This document shows, in pieces, positions 44,669 to 50,204 of a DNA stretch of 58,602 nucleotides (positions are counted from its first letter, which is position 1; every line of letters starts with the position of its first letter). The stretch is from Lachnospiraceae bacterium. Lineage in GTDB: Bacteria; Bacillota; Clostridia; Lachnospirales; Lachnospiraceae. Where the stretch lies: contig JAGAMY010000011.1 of assembly GCA_017624495.1 (NCBI GenBank), forward strand, positions 1 through 58,602, given 5' to 3'. A program made the position numbers and the translations under genes. The notes below the pieces were generated by a model. That model was not told the DNA's origin. It made no database searches and worked only from the letters and a program-made list of their open reading frames with translations.

Positions 44669-46165
44669 ATGATTACAGTTCAATTGAACAAGGCTGACTT
44701 TGAATACGATATTCACTCTTTGGTAAAGGCGTTTTATCCTGCAGAAAATGTGCAGGTGGGCGTGGAATTAAAACCGACCGAAGAGGAGATATCGTTTCGT
44801 GTTGTTACGAACTATTTTGAAAACTGCATAGAGATAGCATTTTATGAGGCTGCGGATACGCAGGCAATTGTAGATATTACAAATGTTACGCCGAAGCTGA
44901 AAAAAGAAATCGAGGTAGATTTTTCGGACAGAAAAGATACCAAAAACCGTTTAAAACAGGCATATTATCAAATGCTTTGCGAATTTACCGGGAAGACACT
45001 TCCCTGGGGAGATTTAACCGGTATTCGTCCGACAAAGATACCGATGGCTTTTTTAGAAGAGGGAAAAGACGAAGCATTTATCCGACAGTATATGAAAGAA
45101 ACGTATTTTGCTTCGGATGAAAAGATAGATTTAAGTATCGATATTGCCAAAAGGGAATTAGAGCTTTTAAAGAAAATAGATTATGAAAATGGATACAGCC
45201 TTTACATAGGGATTCCCTTTTGTCCAAGTACCTGTTTGTATTGCTCCTTTACATCCTACCCACTTGGAATGTGGAAAAAGCGCATAGACGAGTATTTAGA
45301 TGCATTGGAAAAGGAGATTGATTTTACAGCAGAGCGTTTTAAGGATAAACATTTGAATGCGGTTTATATTGGTGGAGGTACGCCGACCACATTAGAACCA
45401 CACCAGTTACAGAGGTTAATTCAAAAGGTGAAATCCTCCTTTGATTTGTCCCAGTGTCTGGAATTTACCGTAGAAGCCGGAAGACCTGACAGTATTACAA
45501 GGGAAAAATTAGAAGTCTTAAAGGCAGAGGGCATTGACCGCATTTCCATTAACCCACAGACCATGAAGGATGAAACGCTAAAAATTATTGGCAGACATCA
45601 TACGGTAGAACAGGCAGTGGAAAGCTTTAAATTGGCAAGGGAATTAGGCTTTGATAATATCAATATGGATTTGATTATCGGGCTTCCGAATGAGAATCTT
45701 GAGGATGTAAGAGCCACCATGGAAAAAGTGAAGGCATTAGATCCGGATAACTTAACGGTACACTCTTTAGCATTAAAGCGGGCAGCCCGTTTAAATATGT
45801 TCCGTGAAGAATATAAGGATTTAACCTTTGAAAATACATGGGAAACCGTGGAACTTACTGCGAATTATGCGAAACAGATGGGCTTAGAGCCATATTATTT
45901 GTATCGCCAGAAAAATATGGCAGGCAATTTTGAAAATGTCGGTTATGCGAAACCGGGAAAAGCCGGAATTTACAATATCTTGATTATGGAAGAGAAACAG
46001 ACTATCGTGGCATTAGGAGCAGGTGCATCCACCAAAAAGGTATACCCGGATAGAGTCATCGAAAGATGCGAAAATGTCAAGGATGTCGGGCATTATATAG
46101 CCAGAATCGATGAAATGATTGATAGAAAAAGGAAATTTTTTGAGGGCTACAATTGTGAAAAATAG
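44669..46165 (+). CDS. hemZ: Oxygen-independent coproporphyrinogen oxidase-like radical SAM protein HemZ
   Basis: The product has 498 residues from ATG 44669; longer readings overlap the MBL gene without a binding site. The radical-SAM cluster motif is CPSTCLYC (CX3CX2C), followed by YIGGGTPTTLEPHQL and the HemN-like HHTVEQAVESFKLARELGF segment. HemZ is a HemN relative; its role in haem synthesis in strict anaerobes is uncertain, and other radical-SAM chemistry is possible. It is normally followed directly by hisS; here about 2.7 kb of accessory DNA intervenes. Confidence 0.9.
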   Translation: MITVQLNKADFEYDIHSLVKAFYPAENVQVGVELKPTEEEISFRVVTNYFENCIEIAFYEAADTQAIVDITNVTPKLKKEIEVDFSDRKDTKNRLKQAYYQMLCEFTGKTLPWGDLTGIRPTKIPMAFLEEGKDEAFIRQYMKETYFASDEKIDLSIDIAKRELELLKKIDYENGYSLYIGIPFCPSTCLYCSFTSYPLGMWKKRIDEYLDALEKEIDFTAERFKDKHLNAVYIGGGTPTTLEPHQLQRLIQKVKSSFDLSQCLEFTVEAGRPDSITREKLEVLKAEGIDRISINPQTMKDETLKIIGRHHTVEQAVESFKLARELGFDNINMDLIIGLPNENLEDVRATMEKVKALDPDNLTVHSLALKRAARLNMFREEYKDLTFENTWETVELTANYAKQMGLEPYYLYRQKNMAGNFENVGYAKPGKAGIYNILIMEEKQTIVALGAGASTKKVYPDRVIERCENVKDVGHYIARIDEMIDRKRKFFEGYNCEK

Positions 46166-46343: not shown

Positions 46344-46691
46344 ATGAACACAGCGTTAAGAGCAGAAGAAGCAAAAGCAATAATTTTTATCAGCGAAGCA
46401 CATGAAAAATTAAAAGAAGTCAGATGTGAGGATGTGTACCATAAAGCATTGGTCTATTGCCTCGGTATCTGCAATGACACAAGAAATAATATTTACCAAA
46501 TTTATGATTTTAAGAGTGGACTCGTAAAACCGGAATGTCTGCGTGAAGGATGGCAGACCAGTGGAAGTGTAAGAGTGGTTCGTATGGCGTTTAATTTATA
46601 TTGTAACGGAATGCCGAGTGTATCAAGTTATAAAATTACGTGCATTTTTCGTTCCAATGCATATAGAACTGAAAAGACATCAAGAAATTAA
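46344..46691 (+). pseudogene. DUF6075-like protein, probably degenerate
   Basis: The 115-codon gene starts behind TTAGGAGG. Its centre (VRCEDVYHKALVYCLGICNDTRN and VKPECLREGWQTSGSV) matches the pattern I associate with DUF6075 proteins of Clostridial integrative elements. It appears to lack a few residues near the HEK-LKEV junction, and after NGMPSVSS it departs into an unrelated tail, so the last part is probably frameshifted or deleted. It is cargo of a mobile element and has no known function. Confidence 0.5.
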
Positions 46692-46981
46692 TCAATCGGT
46701 AAAAGTGAAGATTGGTTTTCGCTTTGATGGTTTGAGTGCATGGGAAATCAAACAAAAGGATTAGGTAATAGTTCAAATTTATTTTTATACAAGGCGGTTA
46801 AAAACTGTAATAAAAGAGTTTGTGACTGCCTTTTTGTACCTTAAATGCGTGAAACGCAGTAATTATTGTGTATCTAAAACTAATTTTAGGAGGTGTTAAA
46901 GGTTAACAATGAAGTTTCTATAAAACTATTTACGTGGGATTATCATTATGAGCGTGATAGTCTTTTTTTGATAAGTGGTTC
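46692..46981 (+). other. Non-coding mobile-element debris with leader-like signals
   Basis: No gene longer than a few codons is seen. AAGGC.../...GCCTTTTT near 46791-46836 makes a weak terminator. A good AGGAGGTG site near 46889 is followed by ATG and only three codons before TAA. A further hairpin, GATTATCA...TGATAGTC, ends in seven T near 46970. This looks like a leader or attenuator left from a lost gene. Confidence 0.4.
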
Positions 46982-47009
46982 TTGACAATCAGCTTTAAAG
47001 TTGTATAAT
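46982..47009 (+). promoter_or_regulatory. Near-consensus promoter of the abiF RNA/abiF locus
   Basis: TTGACA (46982-46987), 16 bp, TATAAT (47004-47009). Both hexamers are perfect. The transcript should start near 47016, just before the structured RNA. Confidence 0.85.
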
Positions 47010-47015
47010 AATAAT

Positions 47016-47067
47016 AACAGAACCCACCACGCCTCTGGTTTTCATGCGCAACCCGGTGGGACTTTTT
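47016..47067 (+). ncRNA. AbiF-type leader RNA (candidate abiF RNA motif)
   Basis: CCCACC (47023-47028) pairs with GGTGGG (47055-47060), followed by ACTTTTT, a terminator shape. Inside, CGC (47030-47032) can pair with GCG (47046-47048), and the loop GGTT (47037-47040) can pair with AACC (47050-47053), making a pseudoknot. The compact RNA, its own strong promoter and its place just upstream of an Abi_2 gene fit the abiF RNA motif known from comparative genomics. Whether it acts as antitoxin RNA here is inferred. Confidence 0.65.
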
Positions 47068-47084
47068 CATTTATGGGGTGTTTT

Positions 47085-47993
47085 ATGTATCAGTATCCAA
47101 AACAAATATTAACAATAACACAGCAAGTACAATCGTATATTGATGCTGGAATGACAATTACTTCTCGTGTTGATGTAGAAAAAGCGTTAAAATCCATAGG
47201 ATTTTATCGTTTACGAGGGTACTCATTTCATTTATATGATAATTTCACAAAAAAGTATGTTCCAGGAACTAAATTTGAAGATATTATAAAATTGTATCAG
47301 TTTGATCAGGAATTGTCTGTTTTGATTTTTTCAATGATTTCGAAGATTGAAGTGGCTTTGAGGGTACGCTTGGTGGAAGCATTACTTGTACATGGAGATG
47401 CACTGATTCTAAAAGATTCATCAATCTTTAAAGATAAAAAGATGTATTGGCAGAATATGTCTACCATAGCATCGGAAATTGCTCGTTCTAATGATGTATT
47501 TATTAAGCATAATTTTGATAAACACGAAGGTGAGGTGCCTGTATGGGCAACTGTTGAAGTGCTTTCTTTTGGGACTTTATCGAAAATAATTAAGAACTTG
47601 AAAACAGGTGCAGGAAGTGCATATGCTGTATTGGCAACTAATTACCAGTATACTTCAAAAAAAGGAAATCTGGCAAATCCATCACAAAAAATGTTTGCTT
47701 CATGGGTACAAGCTGTTTCTATATTACGGAATATGTGTGCTCATAATTCAAGAATATATAATCGGACAATACATACTACACCAGAAATTTTGGATGCAGA
47801 TAAAATTACACCGACACCAGCTCACAATGGGCTATATCAAATTTTACTGGCAATGAAATATCTGAGATCATCAGATGAGGAATGGACAAAATTTGTAGAC
47901 GAGTTAAATAATTTGTTCCAAAATTACAGCAATGTAATTAGTCTTACAGCAATGAATATGCCAGTTGACTGGAAGACTCATTTAAGTGTTTAA
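47085..47993 (+). CDS. AbiF/AbiD-type abortive-infection HEPN protein
   Basis: The 302-residue product belongs to the Abi_2 (AbiD/AbiF) family: IGFYRLRGYSFHLYD, IIKLYQFDQELSVLIFSMISKIEVALR, PVWATVEVLSFGTLSKI. The HEPN ribonuclease motif R-X4-H is present at Arg 215-His 220 (LRNMCAHNSR). I set the start at ATG 47085 behind GGGGTG; an upstream in-frame ATG at 47001 lies inside the promoter and its extension would overlap the structured RNA, so it is rejected. The family blocks phage growth, probably by RNA cleavage, and is proposed to be related to Cas13. Its A/T-rich codon use fits horizontal origin. Confidence 0.88.
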   Translation: MYQYPKQILTITQQVQSYIDAGMTITSRVDVEKALKSIGFYRLRGYSFHLYDNFTKKYVPGTKFEDIIKLYQFDQELSVLIFSMISKIEVALRVRLVEALLVHGDALILKDSSIFKDKKMYWQNMSTIASEIARSNDVFIKHNFDKHEGEVPVWATVEVLSFGTLSKIIKNLKTGAGSAYAVLATNYQYTSKKGNLANPSQKMFASWVQAVSILRNMCAHNSRIYNRTIHTTPEILDADKITPTPAHNGLYQILLAMKYLRSSDEEWTKFVDELNNLFQNYSNVISLTAMNMPVDWKTHLSV

Positions 47994-48290
47994 AATCAGT
48001 TATACTGCATAGAATAGTAGAACAGACCTAATCAAGCATATTATGCTCAAACCGATTAGGCTTTCGGCGAAGTGTTACGATAAGCACTTCGCCACTAAAA
48101 AATAGTTTTTTGCTTATGGGCGGGAACTACTTGGCTGATGAAGTTTGTGTGAGTGATACCAAATGCAAATGGAGGTATTCACGTTGGTTTATGCATTGAG
48201 CCAACAGTATCCTACTCTTTGGAGGAAAAGGCGAAAATGTTTATAAGTGTCTTCTAGGTTTTCTAGGAGACATTTATTATTTATGGAGAA
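47994..48290 (+). other. Intergenic stretch with two strong hairpins and a possible 27-codon ORF
   Basis: CCTAATC (48027-48033) pairs with GATTAGG (48054-48060), the likely end of the abiF transcript. GGCGAAGTG (48066-48074) pairs perfectly with CACTTCGCC (48085-48093). A 27-residue frame at 48163-48246 (start MQMEVFTLVYALSQQYPTLW) has no clear homologue known to me. A third hairpin, AGTGTCT...AGACATT, lies near 48246-48276. Confidence 0.45.
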
Positions 48291-48853: not shown

Positions 48854-48944
48854 GTCATAAGTTGAAAGAGTTTTAATATCTGAATAGAAAAAGTTGTATT
48901 AAAAATATAAAGATATGAAAAATCAAAAAAATGGAGGAAATTTC

Positions 48945-50204
48945 ATGGCATTAGCAAAAAAACCCGTAACAGGGATGAAGGATATTTTACCGGAAGAAAT
49001 GCAGATTCGTGATTATGTCATCAGCGTAATCAAGGATACATACAGAAGCTTCGGTTTTACCCCAATTGAAACACCTTGTATGGAAAATATCGGCAACTTA
49101 AGCAGCAAGCAGGGTGGCGAAAACGAAAAGCTGATTTTTAAAGTTTTAAAAAGAGGCGAAAAGTTAAAATTAGAAACAGCGCAAAGTGAAGCAGATTTAG
49201 TGGATATGGGTATGCGTTATGATTTGACCCTTCCACTGGCAAGATTTTATTCCAACAATGCCAACAATCTGCCATCCCCATTCAAGGCATTACAGATTGG
49301 CAGTGTGTGGCGTGCAGACAGACCACAGAGAGGTCGTTACCGCCAGTTTACCCAGTGTGATATTGATATTTTAGGCGAGCCATCGGATTTGGCAGAAATC
49401 GAATTGATTCTTGCAACCACCACCACTCTTGGCAAATTAGGATTTAAGAATTTTGAAATCCGTATCAATGAGCGTCGGATTTTAAAGGCTATGGCAGCTT
49501 ACAGTGGATTTGCAGAGGATTCCTATGATGAAGTATTTATTACTTTGGATAAGATGGATAAAATTGGTTTAGATGGCGTTGCATCAGAATTAGAAGGCGC
49601 AGGCTATGAGAAATCCGCTATTGATAAATACTTAGATTTATTTATAGCAGTAGAAAACGAAACAGACAGCGTAAAGGCTATTGGTATTTTAGCAGATACC
49701 TTAGGCGATTTCTTAGAAGAGGATGTGAAAGCAAATCTTTCCGAAATTATTGCCAGCGTAGAAGCTACAAAGGCAGCAGATTTTAAGATGGTATTTGACC
49801 CGACTTTAGTTCGTGGTATGGGGTATTATACAGGCACAATTTTTGAAATTGCTATTCCTGAATTTGGCGGAAGCTGCGGAGGCGGCGGACGTTATGATAA
49901 GATGATTGGCAATTTTACCGGAAATGACGTTCCGGCATGTGGATTTTCCATTGGGTTTGAGAGAATTATTCTTTTGCTTATGGAGCAGGGCTTTAAAATT
50001 CCGGAACAGCCAAAGAAAATTGCGTATTTAATCGAAAAGAATTATCCGGCGGACAAGCTTTGTGAAGTGATAGGAAAAGCACAGGAAGCAAGAAAAAATG
50101 GACAGCATGTATTAGTAGTGCGTATGAATAAAAATAAGAAGTTCCAGAAGGAAAAATTAACAGCCGAAGGCTATGAGGAGTTCATGGAGTTCTTTAATAA
50201 TTAG
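48945..50204 (+). CDS. hisS: Histidyl-tRNA synthetase
   Basis: The product has 419 residues from ATG 48945, behind TGGAGG; ATG 48915 has no site. Class II motifs are visible: the motif 2 region RADRPQRGRYRQFTQCDIDI, the histidine-specific GGRYDKMIGNF stretch, and motif 3 in PACGFSIGFERI. The C-terminal anticodon-binding part (about 325-419) is somewhat short. It charges tRNA-His in the cytoplasm. aspS follows 12 bases later in the same operon. Confidence 0.97.
   Translation: MALAKKPVTGMKDILPEEMQIRDYVISVIKDTYRSFGFTPIETPCMENIGNLSSKQGGENEKLIFKVLKRGEKLKLETAQSEADLVDMGMRYDLTLPLARFYSNNANNLPSPFKALQIGSVWRADRPQRGRYRQFTQCDIDILGEPSDLAEIELILATTTTLGKLGFKNFEIRINERRILKAMAAYSGFAEDSYDEVFITLDKMDKIGLDGVASELEGAGYEKSAIDKYLDLFIAVENETDSVKAIGILADTLGDFLEEDVKANLSEIIASVEATKAADFKMVFDPTLVRGMGYYTGTIFEIAIPEFGGSCGGGGRYDKMIGNFTGNDVPACGFSIGFERIILLLMEQGFKIPEQPKKIAYLIEKNYPADKLCEVIGKAQEARKNGQHVLVVRMNKNKKFQKEKLTAEGYEEFMEFFNN

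Follow-up and report, generated by a model that had tools for sequence, protein, structure and literature searches.

One of the closest described relatives of the locus presented here is the AbiFCd/RCd22 pair of the C. difficile prophage phi027. AbiFCd is toxic, and changes at R202/H207 abolish this toxicity. Its leader RNA, RCd22, lowers expression, cuts read-through and neutralises the protein in cis and in trans by direct binding (PMC12373285). As this pair is a published toxin with its RNA antitoxin, the kind of system is already known. For PbAbiF, the relevant passages of a review (PMC12737573) give one RNA per monomer, with two bulge bases inhibiting the RNase. The kinship between AbiF and Cas13 that a first-pass annotation of our locus had brought up has been published as well: according to passages of PMC12165695, the HEPN domains of Cas13an group with those of AbiD/F.

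The stretch of DNA analysed here, referred to as the window, covers 58,602 nucleotides (positions 1 to 58,602 of contig JAGAMY010000011.1) of Lachnospiraceae bacterium GCA_017624495.1, an assembly that is 54.67% complete. Its source is described as a gut bacterium. Between a hemZ-like gene and hisS, the chromosome carries a bounded stretch of 1.1 kb with a promoter, an RNA (RNA1), a toxin gene, a second RNA (RNA2) and a terminator in this order, and the same stretch is found in 25 of 39 related loci. It is very probably an AbiF-type toxin-antitoxin module with type III-like logic, in which two abiF-family RNAs, one on each side of the toxin gene, would bind and silence the AbiF RNase. The parts themselves, their conservation, the covariation in RNA2 and the boundaries of the module are shown by the sequences. 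The first-pass annotation had described a HEPN protein of the AbiF type, preceded by an abiF-family RNA that a promoter drives, and had taken it for a toxin probably restrained by RNA. This view is supported here and has its precedent in RCd22/AbiFCd (PMC12373285); the second abiF-like RNA, downstream of the toxin gene, had been missed. The features are as follows.

46982 to 47009, forward strand: promoter driving RNA1 and the toxin gene (TTGACA and TATAAT at a spacing of 16 nt)
47016 to 47067, forward strand: RNA1 (AACAGA leader, P1, P2, CUCU loop, CAACCC bulge at 47049-47054, U tract)
47085 to 47993, forward strand: abiF-type toxin gene, 302 aa, Abi_2 HEPN protein (profile and structure-chain matches)
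47727 to 47744, forward strand: HEPN motif RNMCAH, residues 215-220 (alignment of 26 sequences)
48010 to 48015, forward strand: candidate -10 box of RNA2, TAGAAT
48021 to 48060, forward strand: RNA2 (AACAGA leader, P1 48027-48033/48054-48060, P2 48035-48039/48043-48047, CAAACC bulge at 48048-48053)
48066 to 48093, forward strand: terminator-type hairpin GGCGAAGTG..CACTTCGCC, the last part of the shared module (fold -18.5 kcal/mol)

The toxin gene encodes residues 1-302 in positions 47085-47990, with the stop codon extending to 47993. The protein matches Pfam Abi_2 (PF07751; 2.2e-47, 162 bits), PADLOC AbiD (2.8e-92), PHROG 2158 (9.3e-51) and, over residues 5-298, the PbAbiF chain of PDB entry 8vz6 (E 5.2e-31); NCBIfam returned no family for it. 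The R-X4-H motif pointed out earlier in this Abi_2 gene held up, since R215, N216, C218 and H220 are all invariant in 26 aligned sequences. Both the Abi_2 gene and the abiF match occur once in the genome of the window, as far as its 54.67% complete assembly goes. Protein relatives at E up to 1e-10 were present in 57 of 299 genomes of the family sample (the genome of the window counted), a scan of genome contigs for relatives gave 31 loci, and a peptide-pattern scan of viral contigs found none. The near set used below comprises 39 loci (L004-L011 and L033-L063), among them loci from Lachnospiraceae, Holdemania, Holdemanella, Hornefia and Anaerotignum, with three genomes represented twice (L004/L033, L007/L045, L008/L048). 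One genome (G296, contig C1) has the toxin gene in two near copies, 12.5 kb apart. In seven loci (L056, L057, L059-L063) RNA1 remains, and the toxin gene looks broken or shortened.

It is worth noting how sharply the module is delimited. When the window is compared with the 39 loci by BLAST, there is a single unbroken match, which in 25 of them starts at 46958-46997 and ends at 48092-48096, so that its right edge is the end of the hairpin. The sequence flanking the module is mostly different between loci; the exception is L046 and L008 (L008 and L048 are one contig), which share some downstream sequence. In G143, a genome from the same genus, matches to the window at 45500-46035 and 48919-49300 are separated by 94 bases, meaning that the module-bearing stretch is absent there. 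In the neighbourhood, a DUF6075 frame at 46344-46691 (115 aa, match stopping at position 103 of 129) is possibly shortened, and a DUF4867 frame at 48291-48710 matches positions 63-199 of 201 only, its start seemingly absent.

RNA1 begins behind a promoter that had been called perfect, and it is: TTGACA (46982-46987) and TATAAT (47004-47009) agree with the consensus in 12/12 positions. A promoter scan at a threshold of 9/12 by itself says little, as it gave two sites versus 2.0 in shuffles. More telling is that a -10 box of at least 5/6 stands upstream in 44 of 44 Abi_2-linked abiF RNAs examined, a set that lies outside the window. The two stems named earlier, CCCACC/GGTGGG (P1, 47023-47028/47055-47060) and CGC/GCG (P2, 47030-47032/47046-47048), are also present, with 98.7% of cells paired over 25 RNAs, and RNA1 could be parsed in 38 of 38 near loci that have the gene start (the window and the three repeated loci counted). 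The proposed check with a covariance model of abiF gave a match under the cutoff. The Rfam abiF model (RF03085) aligns to 47023-47061, with E 2.3e-4 for the 401 bases of 46850-47250, but the 33.3 bits stay below the gathering score of 37, and for this reason a default Rfam scan of the whole window comes back empty. Structure, core and position next to an Abi_2 gene all agree with abiF. Covariation in RNA1 is thin, with one pair changed on both sides in five sequences (25 RNAs), because RNA1 varies little. Its folding energy is no better than that of shuffles (z -0.09), which makes the case for RNA1 a comparative one. At its end, a 6-bp stem followed by ACTTTTT has the shape of a terminator; this candidate is plausible and is absent from the listing of a terminator scan with a loop limit of 8 bases.

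The GGTT/AACC pairing, which had been read as a pseudoknot, was rejected. Of 25 RNAs, 21 cannot form its second pair, none of its pairs covaries, and GGTT itself occurs in 5 of 38 near loci (window counted) against GATT in 28 of 38. An alternative pairing between leader and loop, CAGA/UCUG, is 96.9% paired and has no covariation.

RNAs of this family are not always found beside an Abi_2 gene. Among bacterial abiF RNA loci, 10 of 25 lack Abi_2 in their 1.5-kb flanks (L065, L068, L069, L072, L076, L077, L078, L081, L085, L086), and the frame following the RNA in L085 is MazF-like by eye. In phages, such stand-alone or orphan RNAs were searched for on viral contigs with three sequence patterns that fix the RNA core, the first of which leaves P1 free, giving 35, 7 and 28 records (70 altogether). 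Searches of whole records found Abi_2 in 4 of 42 in the first two sets and in 0 of 32 in the third, where four chance matches are counted, so that 66 of the 70 records are without an Abi_2 seen. Any of these records may be a fragment; a length of 30 kb or more is reached by 36 of the 66, and in two (L113 and L155) the sequence stops within 300 bases 3' of the RNA. A further viral pattern derived from RNA2 of the window gave 4 records with unpaired flanks, which were taken as chance and kept outside the 70. Four viral records (L101, L116, L120 and L122; records G975, G990, G994 and G996) have two abiF RNA matches each.

Most of the orphans retain a paired stem. In the first two sets, which hold 27 distinct orphan forms, P1 cells are paired at 92.0%, compared to 62.6% in shuffles (maximum 74.7%), and all six P1 pairs are present in 21 of these 27 and in 22 of 28 in the third set. 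With look-alikes grouped, leaving 54, the unforced pairs are formed in 91.0%, 88.0% and 95.0% for the three sets, and none of 5,000 shuffles reaches the observed pairing in the first and third sets. For the CAACCC subtype of the window, seen in seven viral records (L124-L130, with L124/L127 and L129/L130 as look-alikes), 482 of 5,000 shuffles reach it, with five groups only. Rfam abiF, run against sets one and two (42 records), matches 30 at E up to 0.001, with 16 over the cutoff and 12 records unmatched. Two further models were trained, R1 only on downstream RNAs and R2 on upstream RNAs; with a limit of E 0.01, R2 recognises 43 of 67 sources, its training having included six such phage RNAs. 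The surroundings of the orphans differ from those of gene-linked RNAs. An upstream -10 of at least 5/6 is found in 13 of 38 orphans from the first two sets versus all 44 linked RNAs, and at least five T in the nine bases past P1 in 9 of 38 versus 42 of 44. A same-strand tRNA lies within 20 nt in 11 of these 38, compared to 4.1% of positions drawn at random from those loci, and in 4 of 28 third-set orphans, a figure without random control.

A phage search by blastn with RNA1 of the window returned 3 weak records, which are not used as evidence, and a composite query against annotated phages returned 107 at E up to 10, many of them weak. Among named phages, 17 regions were examined, one of them (MT835884) cut by the record end; those with a candidate RNA include SBSphiJ-group, Lactobacillus and Enterococcus phages. 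Abi_2 is absent from all 9 of the 9 records searched. Rfam abiF matches 5 of 16, all below the cutoff, and R2 matches 2 of 8, so the named-phage cases rest more on core and stem as read by eye. Between SBSphiJ and SBSphiJ5 three bulge bases differ, with loop and stem unchanged. In phage P59, a skipping-rope RNA (L138:1929-1998) lies in a tRNA array immediately ahead of an abiF-like RNA.

The presence of abiF RNA in phages was noted before, for S-CREM1 and three phages in Rfam, in passages of PMC9964418 that hold no counter-defence reading of it. We lean towards the view that the stand-alone abiF RNAs of phages, a part of them belonging to the CAACCC subtype, are antitoxin mimics that would disarm the AbiF of the host. 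They may be expressed from phage transcripts and often cut out beside tRNAs, with the bulge tuning them to the AbiF of the host. If this is true, the double-RNA module would stand on one side of an arms race fought with RNA against RNA. A serious though less probable alternative is that the orphans serve a phage function unrelated to AbiF, for instance in tRNA processing or regulation, and the 15 of 66 within 20 nt of a phage tRNA would fit this, as would the further ones adjoining structural genes; what speaks against this alternative is that the orphans keep core sequences also seen upstream of abiF genes, in subtypes matching gene-linked RNAs.

RNA2 lies within 100 conserved bases 3' of the stop codon and reads AACAGA-CCTAATC-A-AGCAT..ATGCT-CAAACC-GATTAGG. 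It was parsed in 29 of the 39 near loci, and model R1 adds L007 and L045; of the remaining eight, L047 has a degenerate copy, and in the others the gene is broken or cut. R1 finds two places in the window, namely RNA2 itself (48021-48060, 67.3 bits), which had been among the sequences used for training, and RNA1 (31.0 bits, E 1.2e-4 over 248,426 bases). Rfam abiF gives RNA2 of the window just 19.5 bits (E 0.38), R2 misses it even with an E limit of 1, and the kinship of RNA2 to abiF therefore rests on R1 and on intermediates, these being the downstream RNAs of L009 (42.0 bits with Rfam abiF), L064 (43.3 bits, like L009 above the cutoff) and L010 (28.6). The two-RNA form may be limited to this clade, since R1 has zero matches in the distant Abi_2 loci searched. 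In one distant relative (L015), a downstream hairpin has a bulge that by eye resembles that of its upstream RNA; no model finds it. Other distant Abi_2 genes (L022, L024-L031) have structured-looking leaders, some with AACAGA and GGACCA, which are listed neither by Rfam (E up to 0.5; L026 and L029 outside that search) nor by R2, apart from one weak R2 match in L029. In L024 a c-di-GMP-I riboswitch (2888-2978) lies about 470 bases 3' of the Abi_2 gene.

These properties bear on whether RNA1 is the sole antitoxin and RNA2 a decaying relic, or mainly a part of the terminator of the gene. RNA2 is AU-rich and lacks the CUCU loop; with its low Rfam score, the degeneration in L047 and the terminator hairpin directly 3' of it, such decay would be understandable. 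The T tract after this hairpin is present in most relatives and absent from the window. We nevertheless consider this reading of RNA2 unlikely, because its stems covary strongly: 94.0% of cells pair (29 sequences, 28 distinct), and both partners have changed in six pairs, a level that none of 500 shuffles attains. RNA2 also retains the AACAGA leader and the bulge, and a -10 of at least 5/6, mostly 4 to 7 bases ahead of the leader, is found in 31 of 33 loci (related to one another, with repeats among them) versus 10.7% of shuffles. A convincing -35 was not seen, with at least 9/12 in 4 of the 33 loci and 3.8% in shuffles.

The preferred reading, a toxin restrained by two RNAs, suggests the following course. 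Transcription would start at the strong promoter, and the stem and U tract of RNA1 would probably halt most of it, so that RNA1 would outnumber the toxin mRNA. By homology, RNA1 should be both antitoxin and attenuator. AbiF would be a HEPN RNase acting as a dimer and kept silent by abiF RNA bound via stem and bulge. Lying in the 3' flank of the toxin gene, where a -10 box of its own precedes it and a terminator hairpin follows, RNA2 could supply antitoxin from the 3' end of each toxin mRNA, separately from its own promoter, or both. During phage infection the RNA supply might fail or be displaced, AbiF would then cut RNA, and growth would stop. We infer toxicity, binding, neutralisation and attenuation from the relatives; what triggers the system and how RNA1 and RNA2 share the work is a guess. 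It is very unlikely that the leader RNA never contacts the protein and serves solely as a ligand-sensing switch or as an attenuator in cis. The stem and U tract of RNA1 and the control of read-through shown for RCd22 agree with attenuation, but RCd22 also binds AbiF and acts in trans (PMC12373285), RNA2, being downstream, cannot attenuate the gene, and the orphan RNAs without a gene retain their structure. Guidance of AbiF to chosen transcripts in the fashion of crRNA and Cas13 was rejected for RNA1 as highly improbable, for all the clustering of AbiD/F and Cas13an HEPN domains in the passages of PMC12165695, as nothing in RNA1 resembles a spacer (the loop, which varies, is a short one with mostly 11-15 bases in near loci, and the rest is conserved) and in C. 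difficile the tested mRNA partners bound weakly or failed to bind (PMC12373285).

Literature searches turned up no description of a toxin gene between two abiF-family RNAs and no RNA-mimic reading for AbiF; the most relevant papers, among them the key AbiFr (Cell 2025) and abiF-motif (NAR 2017) papers, lay outside their reach, and the arrangement may be in print. The module resembles AbiFCd/RCd22 in its Abi_2 HEPN protein with RNxCAH, a SigA promoter, an abiF RNA leader and the read-through design. In RCd22 the two abiF motifs both lie upstream and the terminator is separate, whereas the window has one upstream and one downstream; AbiFCd/RCd22 furthermore sits in a lysis module, not between hemZ-like and hisS genes (PMC12373285). 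With PbAbiF and its ncRNA (8vz6; Zilberzwige-Tal 2025, as given in citing papers), the likeness lies in protein homology over residues 5-298 and an RNA-bound HEPN toxin. Among Rfam families, RF03085 fits RNA1 best and is the only one to do so convincingly, sharing the P1/P2 plan and core; RNA1 differs in its score under the cutoff, its CAACCC bulge and a longer loop, and RNA2 is more diverged. ToxIN and classic type III systems likewise set an RNA antitoxin against an RNase, but the protein family is another one. The tandem antitoxin repeats of ToxIN, CptIN and TenpIN were not seen upstream of the gene, with one Rfam abiF match in 46850-47250 and, unlike an upstream tandem array, one R1 match upstream and one downstream of the gene; the pseudoknot of those antitoxins has no conserved counterpart here. 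Cas13 has two HEPN domains per protein, compared to one Abi_2 stretch and one RX4H in the 302 aa of the window protein. The phage orphans are the bolder part of the finding, drawn from sequence comparison. They make it testable whether phages block AbiF, a relative of the nuclease domain of Cas13, with RNA mimics, and laboratory phages of the SBSphiJ group are among the carriers of a candidate mimic RNA. Here the precedent is the pseudo-ToxI of PhiTE, a phage RNA mimicking an antitoxin according to PMC3475682; pseudo-ToxI concerns ToxIN, whereas the abiF orphans are single RNAs, sometimes two, and often lie by tRNAs.
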